Shown: piece after piece, positions 3,250-11,432 of the stretch | How positions within the stretch are numbered: position 1 is the first letter of the stretch | Layout of the letters: every line of letters begins with the position of its first letter | Assembly: GCA_903831585.1 (NCBI GenBank) | Contig: CAIKYE010000272.1 | Location: forward strand, 1 to 11,432 | Length of the DNA stretch: 11,432 bases | Origin: an uncultured Micrococcales bacterium | GTDB lineage: Bacteria > Actinomycetota > Actinomycetes > Actinomycetales > Microbacteriaceae | Direction of reading: 5' to 3' | Program-made: the position numbers and the translations under genes | Notes under the pieces: generated by a model | Told to the model about the DNA's origin: nothing | The model's database searches: none | What the model saw: only the letters and a program-made list of their open reading frames with translations

Positions 3250-3275
3250 CCACTGGGCTAATCAGTTAGTGGGCT
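3248..3275. terminator. weak hairpin at the convergent junction
   Basis: AGCCACT (3248-3254) can pair with AGTGGGCT (3268-3275) with a one-base bulge. The hairpin covers the stop codons of both the GDSL-like gene and rsrA. There is no T-run on either side, so termination here is only a suggestion based on its position between two convergent transcripts. Confidence 0.3.
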
Positions 3276-3514
3276 TCGCCGGCCTGAATCGCGCGAATGC
3301 GGGCCATGATGTTATCGGCTAGCTCTTGCGGTGGCATCTCGGTGCAGTGCTTCTCGATGGTCCCGTTGATGGTGTTCTCGAGGTCATAGTCTGACTCGCA
3401 GCTGTCGCAGTTGGCGAGGTGCACGGTAATGTCAGCCAACTCTTGCACCGATAGTTCGTTGTGCAAGAACTCGTGCACGTGACGTTTGGTTTCTTGGCAA
3501 TCGAATTCAGTCAT
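3266..3514 (-). CDS. rsrA: RsrA-type zinc-binding anti-sigma factor
   Basis: An 82-residue protein of the mycothiol-system anti-sigma-R family. In the family it binds SigR through a zinc-held helical fold and releases it when disulphide stress oxidises the cysteines. The ZAS zinc motif is visible as His32-x3-Cys36-x2-Cys39, with Cys6 upstream and Cys57 near the C-terminus. From memory of Streptomyces RsrA (Cys11, His37, Cys41, Cys44, Cys62), all five fit with a constant offset of five residues. Two further Streptomyces cysteines (3 and 31) have no counterpart. The ATG shares its A with the TAA of the preceding gene (TAATG), so it is probably translated by coupling and made in proportion to its partner. 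It is the last gene of the sigR operon. Its true partner could be SigR, the sigma-4-like protein, or both. Confidence in the family is high. Confidence 0.92.
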   Translation of the reverse strand: MTEFDCQETKRHVHEFLHNELSVQELADITVHLANCDSCESDYDLENTINGTIEKHCTEMPPQELADNIMARIRAIQAGEAH

Positions 3515-3771
3515 TATGCACTCACTCCAAGCGTCTTTCCGATTTGCACTTTTGCGCGGTGCAGCAATCGCACAAGCTCTGGCTGGCGAATTGCTAAACG
3601 CTGAGAAACATCGCTGAAGGTGCGCTTCTCAACCAGCACAAGTTGTGCCACGTCTGCCTGGTTCTTCGGTAGTCCTGAAATTGCTGAGATCAAGTCTGCT
3701 TCGCTAACACCAGATAGATCTGGTGCAACATCGTCGTCTTCGAACGTAACGTCGAGATCGTATTCAGCCAT
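3514..3771 (-). CDS. small protein with a lone sigma region 4-like HTH, between sigR and rsrA
   Basis: An 85-residue protein with no match I can name. Residues 1-26 form an acidic tail with ten Asp/Glu, including EDDD at 11-14. The rest aligns without gaps to region 4 of the neighbouring SigR: over 55 residues I count 13 identities by eye, including LPxN, VE, LxI and LHRxK, with many conservative pairs such as TFSDVSQRL against SYAEIAKVL. It therefore looks like a sigma-4 helix-turn-helix without any region 2, so it cannot be a complete sigma factor. Both gene junctions are TAATG overlaps, placing it firmly in the operon and probably coupled in translation to sigR and rsrA. Possible roles, all inference: an alternative ligand for RsrA, a -35-binding competitor or helper of SigR, or an anti-sigma-like modulator. 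It has no cysteine, so it is unlikely to sense thiols directly. Confidence 0.85.
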   Translation of the reverse strand: MAEYDLDVTFEDDDVAPDLSGVSEADLISAISGLPKNQADVAQLVLVEKRTFSDVSQRLAIRQPELVRLLHRAKVQIGKTLGVSA

Positions 3772-4424
3772 TATTTTGCCTCCATTGCGGATGTGTTATA
3801 TCCCTCTTGCTGCGCATACTCGAGAAGCAAGCTGCGAAGCATTTTCTTTCCTCGGTGCAATCCACTCATGACAGAACCGTCAGGAATGTCGAGCACCTTT
3901 GCAATCTCTGCGTAAGACAAACCCTCAACAACGCGATAGTAAACAATCATTCGCCAGTTTTCAGGAAGCTCTGCCAGCGCGCGCTTCACTGCGCTCGATG
4001 GCATTGCGTCAATTGCTTCGACTTCGGCAGACCGGTTGGCCACCGAAGTTAGAGACTCTGCGCCACCAACCTGCCAGTCTTCGAGCTCATCGAGTGCGGT
4101 TTTTGCCTGGTCTTTGCCACGCTTCACACTGTTGTTGATGTTGGTGTTGCTCAGAATTCTGAACAGCCAAGCCTTTAGGTTGGTGCCCTGCTCGAACTGG
4201 TTGAAAGCTTTGAAGGCCTTCACCATGGTTTCTTGCACTAGATCTTCGGCATCGGTGGGGTTCTTGGTCTTCTGCATTGCCACACCGTATAGCTGGGGCA
4301 TGTATTGCAAGGCCTGCTCTTCGAACAGGCGGACCTTCAGTGCCTCGGGAGTCTCTTTTGTGCTCATTGCGTTTGAGTCTATCCGTGCGTGCCTGAAGGG
4401 CTTTCTCGCTGCAAAAGTTGCCAT
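3771..4424 (-). CDS. sigR: ECF sigma factor, SigR/SigH (thiol-oxidative stress) type
   Basis: An RNA polymerase sigma factor of 217 residues from the chosen start. Region 2 is at about 33-102, with [17 protein letters not shown] (58-74) and [20 protein letters not shown] (83-102). Region 4 is at about 145-200, with [24 protein letters not shown] and HRGKKML. This pattern and the following rsrA identify the SigR/SigH group, which in relatives controls mycothiol and thioredoxin genes. The start is uncertain. ATG at 4424 has GAGAGG four bases upstream. ATG at 4367 (198 residues, beginning MSTKE) lacks a good ribosome site but removes an N-terminal stretch with no resemblance to the family. GTG at 4454 is also in frame. 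A perfect SigR promoter lies upstream, so autoactivation is likely. The stop overlaps the next start (TAATG). Confidence 0.95.
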
Positions 4425-4485: not shown

Positions 4486-4511
4486 AACCAATGACTTCTG
4501 CCTCTTATTCC
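4486..4511 (-). promoter_or_regulatory. SigR-dependent autoregulatory promoter (GGAAT-N18-GTT)
   Basis: Read on the minus strand, GGAAT (4511-4507) is followed by exactly 18 bases and then GTT (4488-4486). This matches the Streptomyces SigR consensus GGAAT-N18-GTT exactly. Transcription would begin around 4479-4477, about 55 bases before the sigR start at 4424, so it would drive sigR, the sigma-4-like gene and rsrA. The -35 element lies in aroA codons 6-7 and the -10 element just before the aroA ATG. The match is seen directly; SigR control is inferred from the known consensus. Confidence 0.82.
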
Positions 4512-5789
4512 CCCAGCGGCTCGCCTTGGCCTGCCCCGCTGGCCAGAGGCCCGATTCAGGCCACGGTTTCACTGCCCGGCTCGAAGTCTCTGACCAACCG
4601 CGAACTGGTGCTCAGCGCCTTAGCCACCGAACCAACCCGACTGACCTCACCCCTAGCTTCGCGCGATAGTCGCCTGATGATCGAGGCCCTTCGCGCTCTC
4701 GGCACCGAGATCAGCATTGAGCCAAACGGCGACATTCTTGTAATTCCGCACGCTTTTGATAAGGCAGCCAAGATCGACTGCGGGCTCGCCGGCACCGTCA
4801 TGCGATTCGTTCCGCCGATTGCCGCTCTTTCGACCGAGGTCATCGACTTCGACGGTGATAAAGCCGCCCGCAAACGCCCAATGGATGTCACGCTAAGTTC
4901 ACTTCGCGACCTCGGGGTTTTCGTAGTCGACGATGTGAAAGGCGTGTTGCCGTTTTGCATCCATGGCGAAGGTTCAATTGCCGGCGGCGAACTTACTATC
5001 GATGCCTCGAGCTCATCGCAGTTTGTCTCGGGGCTGTTGTTGGCCGCGGCACGCTTTGAAAACGGATTAGTTTTGCGTCACGAAGGTGACCACCTGCCAT
5101 CGATGCCACACATCGAAATGACTCTCGACTGTTTGAACAAGCGCGGAGTTAAGACTCATTCACCAGAGCCGATGGTTTGGGTTGTTGAGCCGGGTCCAAT
5201 CTCTGGCGGAGAATTCGCGATAGAACCCGATCTCTCTAACGCAGGACCATTCTTGGCAGCGGCGATGGTTGCCGGTGGCAGCGTCACTGTGCCGCACTGG
5301 CCAACTAGCACAACCCAGGTCGGCGATGAGTTCGACGGCATCTTGCAGCAGATGGGTGCGATTGTCACTCGCAACGAACACGGATTGACAGTTACCGGTA
5401 ACGGCACGATACACGGAATTGACATTGACCTCTCCATCGGTGGCGAACTCACTCCGGTGATCGCAGCGCTGGCCGCACTTGCCGATTCACCATCGCGCAT
5501 CAGCGGAGTTGCACACCTGCGCGGTCACGAGACCGATCGCTTGGCTGCGCTGGTTGCCGAGATAAACCGCATCGGCGGCATCGCTCGCGAGACTGCCGAC
5601 GGCCTCGAAATCGACCCGAGCCAGAATCTAACCGGTGGGCTTTGGCGCACCTACGAAGATCACCGCATGGCTACCGCTGGCGCAATCATTGGGCTTCGGG
5701 TGTCGGGCATCGAGATCGAAGACATCACCACAACTTCGAAAACCATGCCCGAGTTCGACAAGCTTTGGCTAGAGATGCTCGGCAAATGA
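4491..5789 (+). CDS. aroA: 3-phosphoshikimate 1-carboxyvinyltransferase (EPSP synthase)
   Basis: Catalyses transfer of the enolpyruvyl group from PEP to shikimate-3-phosphate, the sixth step of aromatic amino acid synthesis. The protein is 432 residues, the normal size. Family motifs are all present: GSKSLTNR (30-37), GLAGTVMR (98-105, the actinobacterial form of GNAGTxxR), RKRPM (127-131), SSSQ (174-177), GELTP (318-322, Glu at the position of the usual catalytic Asp, as I recall from actinobacterial enzymes), HETDR (346-350), DHRMA (390-394) and SKTMPEF (416-422). The frame stays open upstream to an ATG at 4389, but that stretch is unrelated to AroA and runs antisense into sigR. The ATG at 4491 is preceded by a TAACTT -10 box, so I chose it. 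It is divergent from sigR and overlaps rsgA by four bases (ATGA), forming an aroA-rsgA operon. Confidence 0.97.
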   Translation: MTSASYSPSGSPWPAPLARGPIQATVSLPGSKSLTNRELVLSALATEPTRLTSPLASRDSRLMIEALRALGTEISIEPNGDILVIPHAFDKAAKIDCGLAGTVMRFVPPIAALSTEVIDFDGDKAARKRPMDVTLSSLRDLGVFVVDDVKGVLPFCIHGEGSIAGGELTIDASSSSQFVSGLLLAAARFENGLVLRHEGDHLPSMPHIEMTLDCLNKRGVKTHSPEPMVWVVEPGPISGGEFAIEPDLSNAGPFLAAAMVAGGSVTVPHWPTSTTQVGDEFDGILQQMGAIVTRNEHGLTVTGNGTIHGIDIDLSIGGELTPVIAALAALADSPSRISGVAHLRGHETDRLAALVAEINRIGGIARETADGLEIDPSQNLTGGLWRTYEDHRMATAGAIIGLRVSGIEIEDITTTSKTMPEFDKLWLEMLGK

Positions 5790-6844
5790 GCTGGCTCTAT
5801 GAGCCTGAGTCTGGCGCAAACGATCTAGACGAAACCGACGTGCGCGTTCGCCCAAACCCGAAGGGCAACAAGCCGCGCACCAAGATCAGACCAGACACCA
5901 CAGATGCGCCTACCGGAATGATTCTCGGAGTCGACCTCGGTCGCTATCGAGTTTTGCTTGATGGCGAGGCACGCGTTGTCGATGCAACCATGGGCAAAGA
6001 GATGCGCAAGGCGGGTGCCGTGGTCGGCGACCACGTTGCTCTCGCAGGTGACCTGAGTGACACCGTCGGTGCCCTGGCTCGAGTGGTTCGTGTTGAACCC
6101 CGTTCGTCTTTGCTTCGCCGAAGTGCTGACGACAGCGACCAGGTTGAGCGCGTGATTGTTGCCAACGCAACGCAGATGCTTATTGTCACAGCAATCGCAA
6201 ACCCCGAACCGCGCACGCGTTTGATTGACCGCTATCTTGCCGCAGCTTTTGATGCTGGCTTGCAACCGATTCTCTGCATCACAAAGATAGACCTCGCAGA
6301 CCCCGCAGAGTTTTTGGCGAACTTCGATGGTTTAAGCATTCCAGTGGTTTTGAACCGCAGCGACGAACCGAGCATCGACGAGCTGCGGGTGTTGCTGAAG
6401 AACCAGCGCACTGTTGCGGTTGGTCACTCGGGTGTTGGCAAGTCGACTCTCGTGAACGCTCTCGTTCCTGATGCAGACAGAGCAACCGGAATCGTCAACG
6501 AGGTAACCGGGCGCGGACGACACACATCCAGTTCGGTTCGCGCTATTCGGTTGCCAGAAGACTTTGGCGACGCGTGGGTTATCGACACTCCTGGCGTTCG
6601 CTCGTTTGGCCTTGGGCATGTGCGGCCAGAGAACATCTTGAAGTCTTTCGAAGATCTCTATGCAGTAATCGAAACCTGCCCTCGAGACTGCAGCCACCTG
6701 AGCGATGCTCCCGACTGCGCGCTCGATGCTCACATCGCAGAGGCCGCAGCCACGACTAACCCCGACGAAAAGTTTGCGCGCCGAGTCGACTCTTTGCGCA
6801 GGCTGATGTCTTCGCTGAGCACTGCTGGCAAAACCGACGACTAG
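5786..6844 (+). CDS. rsgA: ribosome small subunit biogenesis GTPase RsgA
   Basis: A circularly permuted GTPase that assists late maturation of the 30S subunit. In its 352 residues, a charged linker (1-43) precedes an OB-fold (about 44-106). The GTPase motifs then follow in the permuted order typical of the family: G4 TKID (166-169), G1 GHSGVGKS (213-220), a G2 region GRGRHTSSS (242-250) and G3 DTPG (267-270). The C-terminal zinc site is Cys298-x3-Cys302-x-His304-x6-Cys311; Escherichia coli-type proteins have C-x4-C-x-H-x5-C, and I believe the variant here is normal for actinobacteria. The ATG overlaps the aroA stop in ATGA, so translation is probably coupled; the longer open frame begins inside aroA and was not used. 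Linkage to aroA beside a sigR/sigH locus is known in other actinobacteria, for example Mycobacterium. Confidence 0.96.
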   Translation: MSWLYEPESGANDLDETDVRVRPNPKGNKPRTKIRPDTTDAPTGMILGVDLGRYRVLLDGEARVVDATMGKEMRKAGAVVGDHVALAGDLSDTVGALARVVRVEPRSSLLRRSADDSDQVERVIVANATQMLIVTAIANPEPRTRLIDRYLAAAFDAGLQPILCITKIDLADPAEFLANFDGLSIPVVLNRSDEPSIDELRVLLKNQRTVAVGHSGVGKSTLVNALVPDADRATGIVNEVTGRGRHTSSSVRAIRLPEDFGDAWVIDTPGVRSFGLGHVRPENILKSFEDLYAVIETCPRDCSHLSDAPDCALDAHIAEAAATTNPDEKFARRVDSLRRLMSSLSTAGKTDD

Positions 6845-9203: not shown

Positions 9204-11432
9204 CTAACCCTTGAAGGTGATAAACACGAGACCGACTTCTGTGGTCTTGGTTGTTTTCACAGTCGTAACTGACGTCTTCGAAGTTCTTCCTAGCTTGGTG
9301 ATGCTTGTCTTGGCATAAGCACAAGAATTCTGGGCACGCAATTTGTAAAGAGCCAAGTCTTTTGCGGTGGTTTTTGTCGAATAGGCGGCGGTGCAAGAAA
9401 CCTGCTTTACCCGAGGGTCCTTGACCTTTGTAGCGATCCAGCTGCGCTGACTGGTGGTCAGTGCAGTCGACTTGGATGAAAAGGTGGGCAACTGCACTTT
9501 GGCGTTCAGAATGACCACGGCAGTTGGTGTTGGGGTTGGCGTGGGTTTTGGTGACGCTGTAGCAGTAGGAGTGGGTGAGGCGGTTGGGGTTGGCGAGGCT
9601 GTAGGGGTAGGCGATGATGTCGGCGCTGGACCAGGCACAGACACAACTGGGTTCGACGGACCTGGGCCATATTGTGCCCACGCTGCGCGCAGCTGTTTAG
9701 ATCTTGCGCCCAAGTATGAGGCCAGGTGCACGCCCAATTGGTCGTATTCGAATCCATAGACAGTTCTAAACACGTTGGCATTCGCTATGCGCTCAGATGC
9801 ATTGTTCGCACCCTTGGTCTGCAGAAGGCCTTTCATCCAGTCGACATACTTCTGATGTCCATACTTTGAAACCAGCCACTCACTTACCAGGGTTCCGACC
9901 GCGTATTGATCCCAAACGGTACCTCCCCTGGTGAGCATGGTCTGAATGTCAAATACGTTTCCGCTCTCGAAAAGATCTAGCATCTTCAAATCGCCAAATT
10001 GATAGCCGTTGTAAATATCGAACTGTGTGGCTTGCCCGGCAATCGATTTGTTGATGGTCAAAAGCGTTGGGTCATCGGGAGCGATTCCCAAAGCGAGGCC
10101 ATAGAAATTTGCTTGGCCTTCGATCAACCAGGGAACCGTTCCTAGAAACAGAGCTGGGTTCTGTGCGTATTGAATCCAGTGACTGTATTCGTGTGGACCA
10201 ACCTGTTGATCGTTAATTCCGCTATCGCTGCCATTTTTCACACATTGAATAAAAACCTGTTTCTGATCTGCCATGAAGGCAAGCGCGAAACCACAAGAGT
10301 TTCTCTCAATCCAAGAACGAATTCCCCCTGGAATACTGTTGCTCCAAGATGGTTGCTGACTTATCGCCTGTTCGGCCCAAGTGGCATCATTCTGAGTCAG
10401 ATACATAACCGTGACGTCGACCGGGTTGTATTCGGAAAACCAGAAGTCCGCCGCTTTTTGAACCAGGGCTTTCTCTCGAGTGAGAGTTGCATTCGTGACG
10501 GTTGGTGAAGTGATGTAGTTGATGCCATAAACCCTGCTCGATGGCGTATAGCCATTGAATATGGCCGAGTAGGCGCTCATTGGGTTGGCGGGCTGAATGC
10601 TAGACCCAGCAACCGGCTCGCTAATCGCCGATGACGGGCTGTAAGCATCACGCCTTGCGGTCACGAGCACCTGCAGCGCCTTACCAACATCAGTGTTTCT
10701 GACCGTGTAGGTGGCAGAAGTTTCAGTAGCTATAGGCGCATAATCGCTGAACCATTGATAAGTGAGGTTGGCCAGTGGATCCGTGCCAGTTGTTCTTGCC
10801 GTCAGAGTGCTGCCGACAGTCTGTGTGCCAAGAATTGTAGGTTTAGCCATCACAAGTTGATATGGCACCGTAGTTCTGAGTTTCTTGGACTCGCTGAAAA
10901 CAAATCCGTTTGCGTAGGTCACATGGTAAGCGCCCCAAATTGTTTGCCCCGCGTCTGCGGCTTGCAGGCGATAGCTGATGTTGCTGGCCCCGGCAATTAG
11001 TGTTCCGTTTCGATACCAAGAAAACTTCGCGTCAACGGTGCTTCCAAAGTTGGTGTTGTAAGGGTTACAAGAGAACCAAATTGTCCAACCAATTGTTGGA
11101 GTTTCCACCTGACTGGCGCGCGGTGCAAAACATCCGGGTTGCGACACAGATTCGTCGCCCCAGGTCATATTGCCCGAACCGTTGGGCAGTGACCCGAAGA
11201 CAGTTGCTCCAGCTGCCACAATTACCCGATTCGCAAAGCCGGCTTTGCTTAGCGTGATTCTTGCGCTAATAACTTTGCCCACGTGCGCGGCGGTTAGGTT
11301 GAGAGTTACCGACTGCTCTGCGTCAAGCTTGACCGCATCGGCAAACCATTCGAAGGTTGCGCTGACAGCTGTGTCTTCGCTCGGATAAATTGCAGTGACT
11401 GTTCCACCGAGTCCAAAGTAGCCAGCAAGCAA
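9204..11432 (-). CDS. secreted multidomain gluzincin-type metallopeptidase with Ig-like repeats, 5' partial
   Basis: At least 742 residues; the frame is open to the window edge, so the N-terminus and any signal peptide are missing. Residues are numbered from the edge. Three Ig-like repeats come first (about 1-75, 112-189 and 198-274), recognisable by FEW/SWY/TYQWF cores and TAAHVGK, QAADAGQ and RNTDVGK turns, as in actinobacterial surface proteins. A metallopeptidase domain spans about 285-590, with HEYSH (414-418) and WLIEGQA containing Glu438. The 19-residue gap between His418 and Glu438 equals thermolysin spacing, and the WLxEGxA context resembles the peptidase MA group. A Pro/Thr/Ser linker (601-637) leads to a C-terminal domain (638-742) with LRAQNSCAYAK, faintly OmpA-like. 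Cysteines occur in pairs, one pair per region (101/122, 380/397, 680/704), which suits an exported disulphide-bonded protein. No LPXTG anchor is present. The substrate is unknown. Confidence 0.85.
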   Translation of the reverse strand: MLAGYFGLGGTVTAIYPSEDTAVSATFEWFADAVKLDAEQSVTLNLTAAHVGKVISARITLSKAGFANRVIVAAGATVFGSLPNGSGNMTWGDESVSQPGCFAPRASQVETPTIGWTIWFSCNPYNTNFGSTVDAKFSWYRNGTLIAGASNISYRLQAADAGQTIWGAYHVTYANGFVFSESKKLRTTVPYQLVMAKPTILGTQTVGSTLTARTTGTDPLANLTYQWFSDYAPIATETSATYTVRNTDVGKALQVLVTARRDAYSPSSAISEPVAGSSIQPANPMSAYSAIFNGYTPSSRVYGINYITSPTVTNATLTREKALVQKAADFWFSEYNPVDVTVMYLTQNDATWAEQAISQQPSWSNSIPGGIRSWIERNSCGFALAFMADQKQVFIQCVKNGSDSGINDQQVGPHEYSHWIQYAQNPALFLGTVPWLIEGQANFYGLALGIAPDDPTLLTINKSIAGQATQFDIYNGYQFGDLKMLDLFESGNVFDIQTMLTRGGTVWDQYAVGTLVSEWLVSKYGHQKYVDWMKGLLQTKGANNASERIANANVFRTVYGFEYDQLGVHLASYLGARSKQLRAAWAQYGPGPSNPVVSVPGPAPTSSPTPTASPTPTASPTPTATASPKPTPTPTPTAVVILNAKVQLPTFSSKSTALTTSQRSWIATKVKDPRVKQVSCTAAYSTKTTAKDLALYKLRAQNSCAYAKTSITKLGRTSKTSVTTVKTTKTTEVGLVFITFKG
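9522..9632 (-). repeat. Pro/Thr/Ser-rich linker with a six-residue tandem repeat
   Basis: The linker of the metallopeptidase contains three consecutive SPTPTA units (residues 607-624), then a degenerate TASPKP and a PTPTPT run. The DNA copies differ at synonymous sites, so the amino acid repeat is better kept than the nucleotide repeat. Such stretches are typical extended spacers, often glycosylated, between secreted catalytic and C-terminal domains. Confidence 0.8.

Follow-up and report, generated by a model that had tools for sequence, protein, structure and literature searches.

A stand-alone protein resembling ECF sigma region 4, encoded between sigR and rsrA in a Rhodoluna clade: a possible relocated catabolic regulator

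Known systems and the sigR-LONE-rsrA locus

RsrA has been reported to lie between the sigma2 and sigma4 domains of SigR and to contact both of them (PMC4960319, in the portion of the article available), and in Streptomyces p-benzoquinone induces SigR through direct modification of RsrA, according to the accessible part of PMC5288332. An extract of PMC8103513 describes the split sigma factor SigO-RsoA, in which SigO carries sigma4 and RsoA carries sigma2, as well as PhyR, which mimics a whole sigma-like domain. HpaR/HpcR-type MarR proteins control 4-hydroxyphenylacetate genes.

The window analysed here, a stretch of 11,432 nucleotides from an uncultured Micrococcales bacterium of the Microbacteriaceae, has the same operon as the SigR-RsrA (SigH-RshA) system, with its usual SigR-type promoter, and a further ORF between the two genes. 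On the minus strand lie sigR (3771..4367; the likely start codon is the ATG at 4367, a longer GTG form not being common to the homologues), the intervening ORF, which we named LONE (3514..3771; ATG start, 85 amino acids, an acidic tail plus a helix-turn-helix, HTH, like that of ECF region 4), and rsrA (3266..3514), which by Pfam and NCBIfam encodes a mycothiol-system anti-sigma factor with a zf-HC2 domain. The best matches of the window SigR (TIGR02947, 229.1 bits) and RsrA (TIGR03988, 59.8 bits) were just under the curated cut-offs of 251.55 and 62.5, respectively. As the initial annotation had described, TAATG joins the 85-residue frame to its neighbours on both sides: at 3771 the start codon of LONE and the stop codon of sigR have one base in common, and at 3514 the same is true of the LONE stop and the rsrA start.

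Like LONE, SigO has no sigma2 domain, sigma4 being the part that it carries (PMC8103513, same extract). Unlike SigO, LONE was seen with no adjoining sigma2 partner gene, its company being either catabolic genes or a complete SigR. LONE resembles PhyR in its predicted sigma-like fold and in the nearness of its gene to that of an anti-sigma factor, which the decoy idea of the initial annotation would require, although it has no receiver domain (no Pfam match). The likeness to ECF sigma region 4 (PF04545/PF08281, TIGR02937) consists of a four-helix HTH domain at residues 24-81, predicted by AlphaFold2 and corresponding approximately to 3581..3702 on the minus strand (coordinates derived from residue numbers), whereas LONE differs in having no region 2, in scoring under the curated cut-offs and in its second HTH helix, which reads IRQ-ELV as against IPDGSV in SigR. 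No published work on LONE was found among open-licence PMC papers, and the papers listed there did not mention Rv3222c of Mycobacterium tuberculosis, a species for which the initial annotation had pointed to an uncharacterised gene between sigH and rshA.

LONE is a real ORF under purifying selection. The sigR-linked copies are 74-84% identical to each other in protein sequence, and dN was 0.12-0.16 versus a dS of 1.3-2.4 in five of their six pairs (dS was not computable for the sixth), which together with the conservation across genomes rules out a chance ORF or an annotation artefact. The likeness to region 4 of ECF sigma factors lies in the last ~60 residues: Pfam Sigma70_r4 gave E=0.0011 and 18.8 bits (gathering score 24.1), and TIGR02937 gave E=1.2e-4 and 21.7 bits (cut-off 42.9). 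A gapless alignment with region 4 of the adjacent SigR, originally counted by hand as 13 of 55 identical residues, was recovered by BLASTP as 12/48 (E=5e-4, an E value for this single comparison), and the profile-profile alignment of LONE with four SigRs fell on region 4 with a probability of 95.6%. The AlphaFold2 model, built from an alignment of 44 family members, had a mean pLDDT of 83.8 and showed four helices, the helices being confident and the first ~20 residues of low confidence. The absence of region 2 and the acidity of the N-terminal tail, both pointed out from the letters alone, were borne out as well, since a Pfam search gave no Sigma70_r2 match at E<=10 and 8 of the first 20 residues, which include the FDLD-type motif YDLDVTFE, are D or E. 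Being without region 2, LONE is not a sigma factor. It contains no cysteine. A resemblance of the FDLDV tail to a lanthipeptide leader was considered, but the NCBIfam families listed included no lanthipeptide match, and a reading of LONE as a KorA-domain protein was rejected because the PDB match had an E of only 0.06, as weak as that to SigE.

The LONE family and its gene contexts

LONE is a family name coined here, and membership was defined by an FDLD-type tail plus the core SDVSQ-L-IRQ-EL, both of which the window protein has; the core falls within the last two predicted helices. Fourteen columns are invariant across the 44 members, window included, among them D5 and D7 in the tail and R50, S53-Q57, R62, Q63 and R72 in the HTH. 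All 14 are retained by the sigR-linked copies, and the HTH core is invariant in every context. When the 44 members were compared with NCBIfam, the generic TIGR02937 matched 34 and the SigR-type TIGR02947 only five, by which measure the family is not closest to SigR. In other genera the LONE profile matched region 4 of full-length ECF sigma factors (E 1e-6 to 1e-3). Beyond the family, in 398 Microbacteriaceae and 297 order-level genomes, the profile matches were weak and mostly in long frames fitting full-length sigma factors where the frame was given, so LONE appears to be a family of few members that either descended from ECF region 4 or converged on it.

A scan of 84,980 species' genomes yielded 59 LONE loci, in records of Rhodoluna, Microcella, Yonghaparkia and others, mostly Microbacteriaceae or unplaced actinobacterial bins; the homologues in the 59 related genomes searched were 47-84% identical. 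Counted by hand, 39 loci were hpa-linked, having the operon HpaE-HpaD-HpaG-ferredoxin-reductase-LONE, whole or as a remainder at a contig end; in 13, LONE stood behind an APC-type amino-acid permease; four were sigR-linked, one of them (L106) with the contig ending inside LONE; and the other three were a different context (L076), a contig edge (L098) and a remnant (L105). The permease unit and the hpa-like operon belong to one larger cluster, which also has genes for a MarR protein, a P450, a glutamine-synthetase-like (GS-like) enzyme and an amidotransferase. The cluster encodes HpaE-, HpaD- and HpaG-like enzymes, a ferredoxin of 3Fe-4S/4Fe-4S type, a ferredoxin reductase, P450s, the GS-like enzyme, the permease and the MarR regulator. 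The hpa enzymes are named after their best matches, which score under the curated cut-offs, so 'homoprotocatechuate-type' serves as a working label that does not fix the substrate. As in HpaR/HpcR-type control, the cluster has an HpaR-like MarR protein (best match HpaR, 59.4 bits, cut-off 121.2) and a palindromic operator, but LONE is a second, unrelated HTH protein and the operator occurs with or without it.

Some single loci were also recorded. A large cluster in L237 (7775-14639) contains MarR, P450, amidotransferase, GS-like, acetoacetate-decarboxylase-like, permease and LONE genes, and looks like a gamma-glutamyl-amine route joined to hpa-like genes. Microcella alkalica (L096) carries two LONE copies in one locus (4938-5219 and 5992-6252), from different branches of the permease-linked group. 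In genome G033, which has no HpaD match, a 30-residue LONE remnant with stops upstream (L041, ~5000-5090) looks like a decayed copy.

LONE was present in 28 of 67 Rhodoluna genomes (27 at E<1e-30, plus G035 through its first 15 codons) and HpaD in 30, and 27 of the 28 LONE-bearing genomes also had HpaD. The contig of the lone exception (G706) begins inside the reductase gene, and the contigs of the genomes with HpaD and no LONE (G015, G020 and G723) end inside it. Among 398 genomes of the family, all 19 with LONE at E<1e-20 had HpaD, which overall was found in 51. Most informative are the genomes in which the two genes are unlinked, namely the five sigR-linked genomes, all of which (5/5) have HpaD matches, G444 (1.1 Mb apart on one contig) and G240 (different contigs). 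In G000, G032 and G035 a convergent gene comes immediately after the reductase gene, LONE being gone from the end of the hpa operon. The contigs of G022 and G729 start within that operon, and each of these two genomes has a single LONE match. Co-occurrence in most genomes can follow from linkage alone. A test on the SigR tree gave four well supported independent pairs, with LONE and HpaD together in 3.9 on average (median p 0.125), and with only four such pairs the sign test cannot reach 0.05. HpaD-bearing lineages without LONE were found (8 loci), showing that LONE is accessory. Bin contamination (7.04%) is an unlikely source of the hpa genes of the window genome, whose reductase shares 88.5% identity with the G035 enzyme.

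Promoter and operator sequences of the LONE units

The predicted promoter of sigR-LONE-rsrA is a match at 4486..4511 (minus strand) to GGAAT-N18-GTT, which we take to be the consensus of SigR-type promoters, and by this upstream site the unit is a candidate member of the SigR regulon. Such a match was present in 45 of 48 Rhodoluna sigR loci versus 3.9% of shuffled sequences; within the window alone 0.33 matches are expected, so that the single one found is not unusual. The bases between the GGAAT and GTT boxes vary across loci. The site overlaps the start codon of aroA (4491-4493, plus strand), and part of its conservation may therefore stem from aroA. The divergent aroA and sigR genes have the promoter region 4486-4511 in common.

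In the same 48 loci the order sigR-LONE-rsrA was complete in four, and a fifth (G035) has a contig end 15 codons into LONE. In the other 43, rsrA comes directly after sigR, the two genes being directly adjacent in Streptomyces too. This survey excluded G706 and G711, with partial matches, and G718, whose protein was 33% identical and was not taken as SigR. The three-gene order, for which the initial annotation had proposed a survey across the Microbacteriaceae, is conserved in related genomes but is not general in the group, and a three-gene switch common to the whole family was rejected, LONE following sigR in 5/48 Rhodoluna loci, one of them cut.

The palindrome TCRTT-N8-AAYGA was found upstream of hpaE, exactly in 35 of 37 distinct regions outside the LONE-lacking lineages and in all 37 when one mismatch was allowed, as well as upstream of the permease gene (15/16) and of the GS-like gene (14/14); identical upstream regions were taken once. 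Composition shuffles gave no exact match (mean 0.00 each for the hpaE and permease regions). Since the palindrome also precedes hpaE in 8/8 LONE-lacking lineages, the MarR protein is the better candidate for binding it, and an assignment to LONE is unsupported. At one mismatch or less, none was found near the window's sigR or in the five to six related sigR loci scanned, and a stricter form had no match anywhere in the window. No SigR-type promoter was found in 48 hpaE, 13 permease and 17 GS-like upstream regions. Matches to it upstream of hpa-linked LONE copies lie inside coding sequence and are unconserved, and this promoter was rejected as an old feature of LONE. The cluster copies are predicted to be under the palindromic operator and the sigR-linked copy under the SigR-type promoter without the palindrome. 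By eye, a stretch AGTATGSC was seen directly before the probable -10 of hpaE in many Rhodoluna loci that carry LONE (L059, L051, L229 and others); missing from some LONE-bearing rows, also by eye, it was discarded as a LONE-specific promoter element.

Origin and possible function of LONE

A tree of 59 distinct LONE proteins (90 columns, midpoint root) was calculated, from which loci L084, L099, L100, L105, L106 and L126 were absent because they missed the protein-extraction pattern. Every row labelled neither sigR nor permease was called hpa, including L076 with its different context, while L098 and some Microcella rows were called permease-linked by clade. The four full sigR-linked rows formed one clade (100/99), which, nested in the hpa-linked part of the tree, had the hpa rows L056 and L059 as its neighbours (97/90), and the permease-linked rows formed one side of a branch (100/99). 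Given this nesting, the LONE gene most likely moved once, from its place as the last gene of an hpa-like operon into the sigR-rsrA unit. The stem of the sigR-linked clade is long (0.92), and this, with the midpoint root, leaves the exact donor unsure; the clade's reductase, 74-75% identical to that of G008 and 72-74% to that of G001, gave no preference to the donor lineage that LONE suggests. Over their first 15 bases, LONE and rsrA are identical at 11-13 positions in each of the four complete loci, which would suit recombination at both gene starts, although it may be coincidence. The initial annotation had suggested that LONE may be a diverged partial duplicate of sigR. This origin was rejected: the nearest relatives of LONE, 47-58% identical, are genes of the hpa-like catabolic cluster, among which the sigR-linked copies group, and the 47-84% identity to LONE relatives versus 12/48 residues to SigR, as well as the TIGR matches, point the same way.

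The reading that we tentatively favour, at somewhat short of an even chance, is that LONE is a relocated catabolic HTH regulator, acting in trans on the hpa-like cluster and now placed in the SigR autoregulatory operon. We propose that LONE binds DNA and regulates in trans because of its conserved HTH with an invariant start of the second helix, the company of the cluster from several positions and the lack of a cysteine or sensor feature. DNA binding, the target (control of the hpa-like genes), the sign of regulation and the induction of LONE by thiol stress are all points that we infer; no DNA target could be assigned to LONE, the palindrome going with MarR and having no match in the window. 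Catechol pathways can give quinones, and with the induction of SigR by p-benzoquinone in Streptomyces (PMC5288332) a link to thiol stress is chemically plausible. According to the proposed mechanism, LONE would regulate an aromatic/amine catabolic cluster, and in one Rhodoluna clade of freshwater bacteria it would have left the end of the hpa-like operon and inserted between sigR and rsrA with its translational coupling kept, so that its synthesis would have been taken off a MarR-type operator and put onto the SigR autoregulatory promoter. Reactive catechols or quinones of the pathway would then oxidise or alkylate RsrA, and the SigR set free would raise LONE along with SigR and RsrA. It is a doubtful step further that the move amounted to a rewiring from substrate to thiol-stress control, with quinone damage feeding back through RsrA on the quinone-making pathway and, in the boldest form, with LONE touching RsrA or SigR too. 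If true, this would be a datable regulatory rewiring by gene relocation, in which the gene, the LONE-free old operon, the old operator and the new promoter are all visible in relatives. LONE would also mark out a small group of single-domain region-4-like proteins connected with catabolism, and cultured relatives exist in both Microcella and Rhodoluna.

The relocation may instead have been passive, LONE still working in catabolism and the new place only supplying expression, with no functional link to thiol stress. A single event confined to one clade (5/48 genomes), the different positions of LONE in G240 and, behind a permease, in Microcella, and the matching starts of LONE and rsrA as a possible recombination site are consistent with this. 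Nevertheless, a gene kept at 74-84% identity between overlapping neighbours under an autoregulated stress promoter would have its expression altered if the promoter works, and we consider a purely passive move unlikely.

Slightly less likely again, in our estimation, is the original suggestion that LONE is a third part of the SigR-RsrA switch, a region-4 mimic binding RsrA (as a decoy, anti-anti-sigma-like) or SigR and thereby tuning the thiol-stress response. The region-4-like fold adjoins its would-be partner, the genes are strictly coupled in all four complete loci, and a decoy is conceivable because, in the available portion of PMC4960319, RsrA sits between sigma2 and sigma4 of SigR in contact with both, so that a free region 4 could compete. 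The positive evidence does not go beyond position and fold. Against it, at least 52 of the 59 LONE loci have neither sigR nor rsrA in their surroundings, SigR is not the nearest match of the family (TIGR02947 5/44, TIGR02937 34/44), and none of the family invariants has been lost from the sigR-linked copies, R62 and Q63, which look exposed and start the second HTH helix, being among those kept. SigR and RsrA were present in every Rhodoluna genome with a readable sigR locus, and distribution therefore cannot decide the matter.

Very improbable is a sigma-like or RNA-polymerase-bound factor that recognises a -35-like element, serves as the region 4 of a split sigma factor or competes for -35 elements: the region-4 fold, the basic second HTH helix and the precedent of SigO-RsoA (extract of PMC8103513) would suit it, but no region-2-only gene was seen in the LONE neighbourhoods viewed and visual inspection revealed no common -35 element confined to genomes with LONE.

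Elsewhere in the window, a long frame on the minus strand (9204-11432) stays open past the window end and has a T/P/S-rich linker; it likely encodes a secreted or surface protein.
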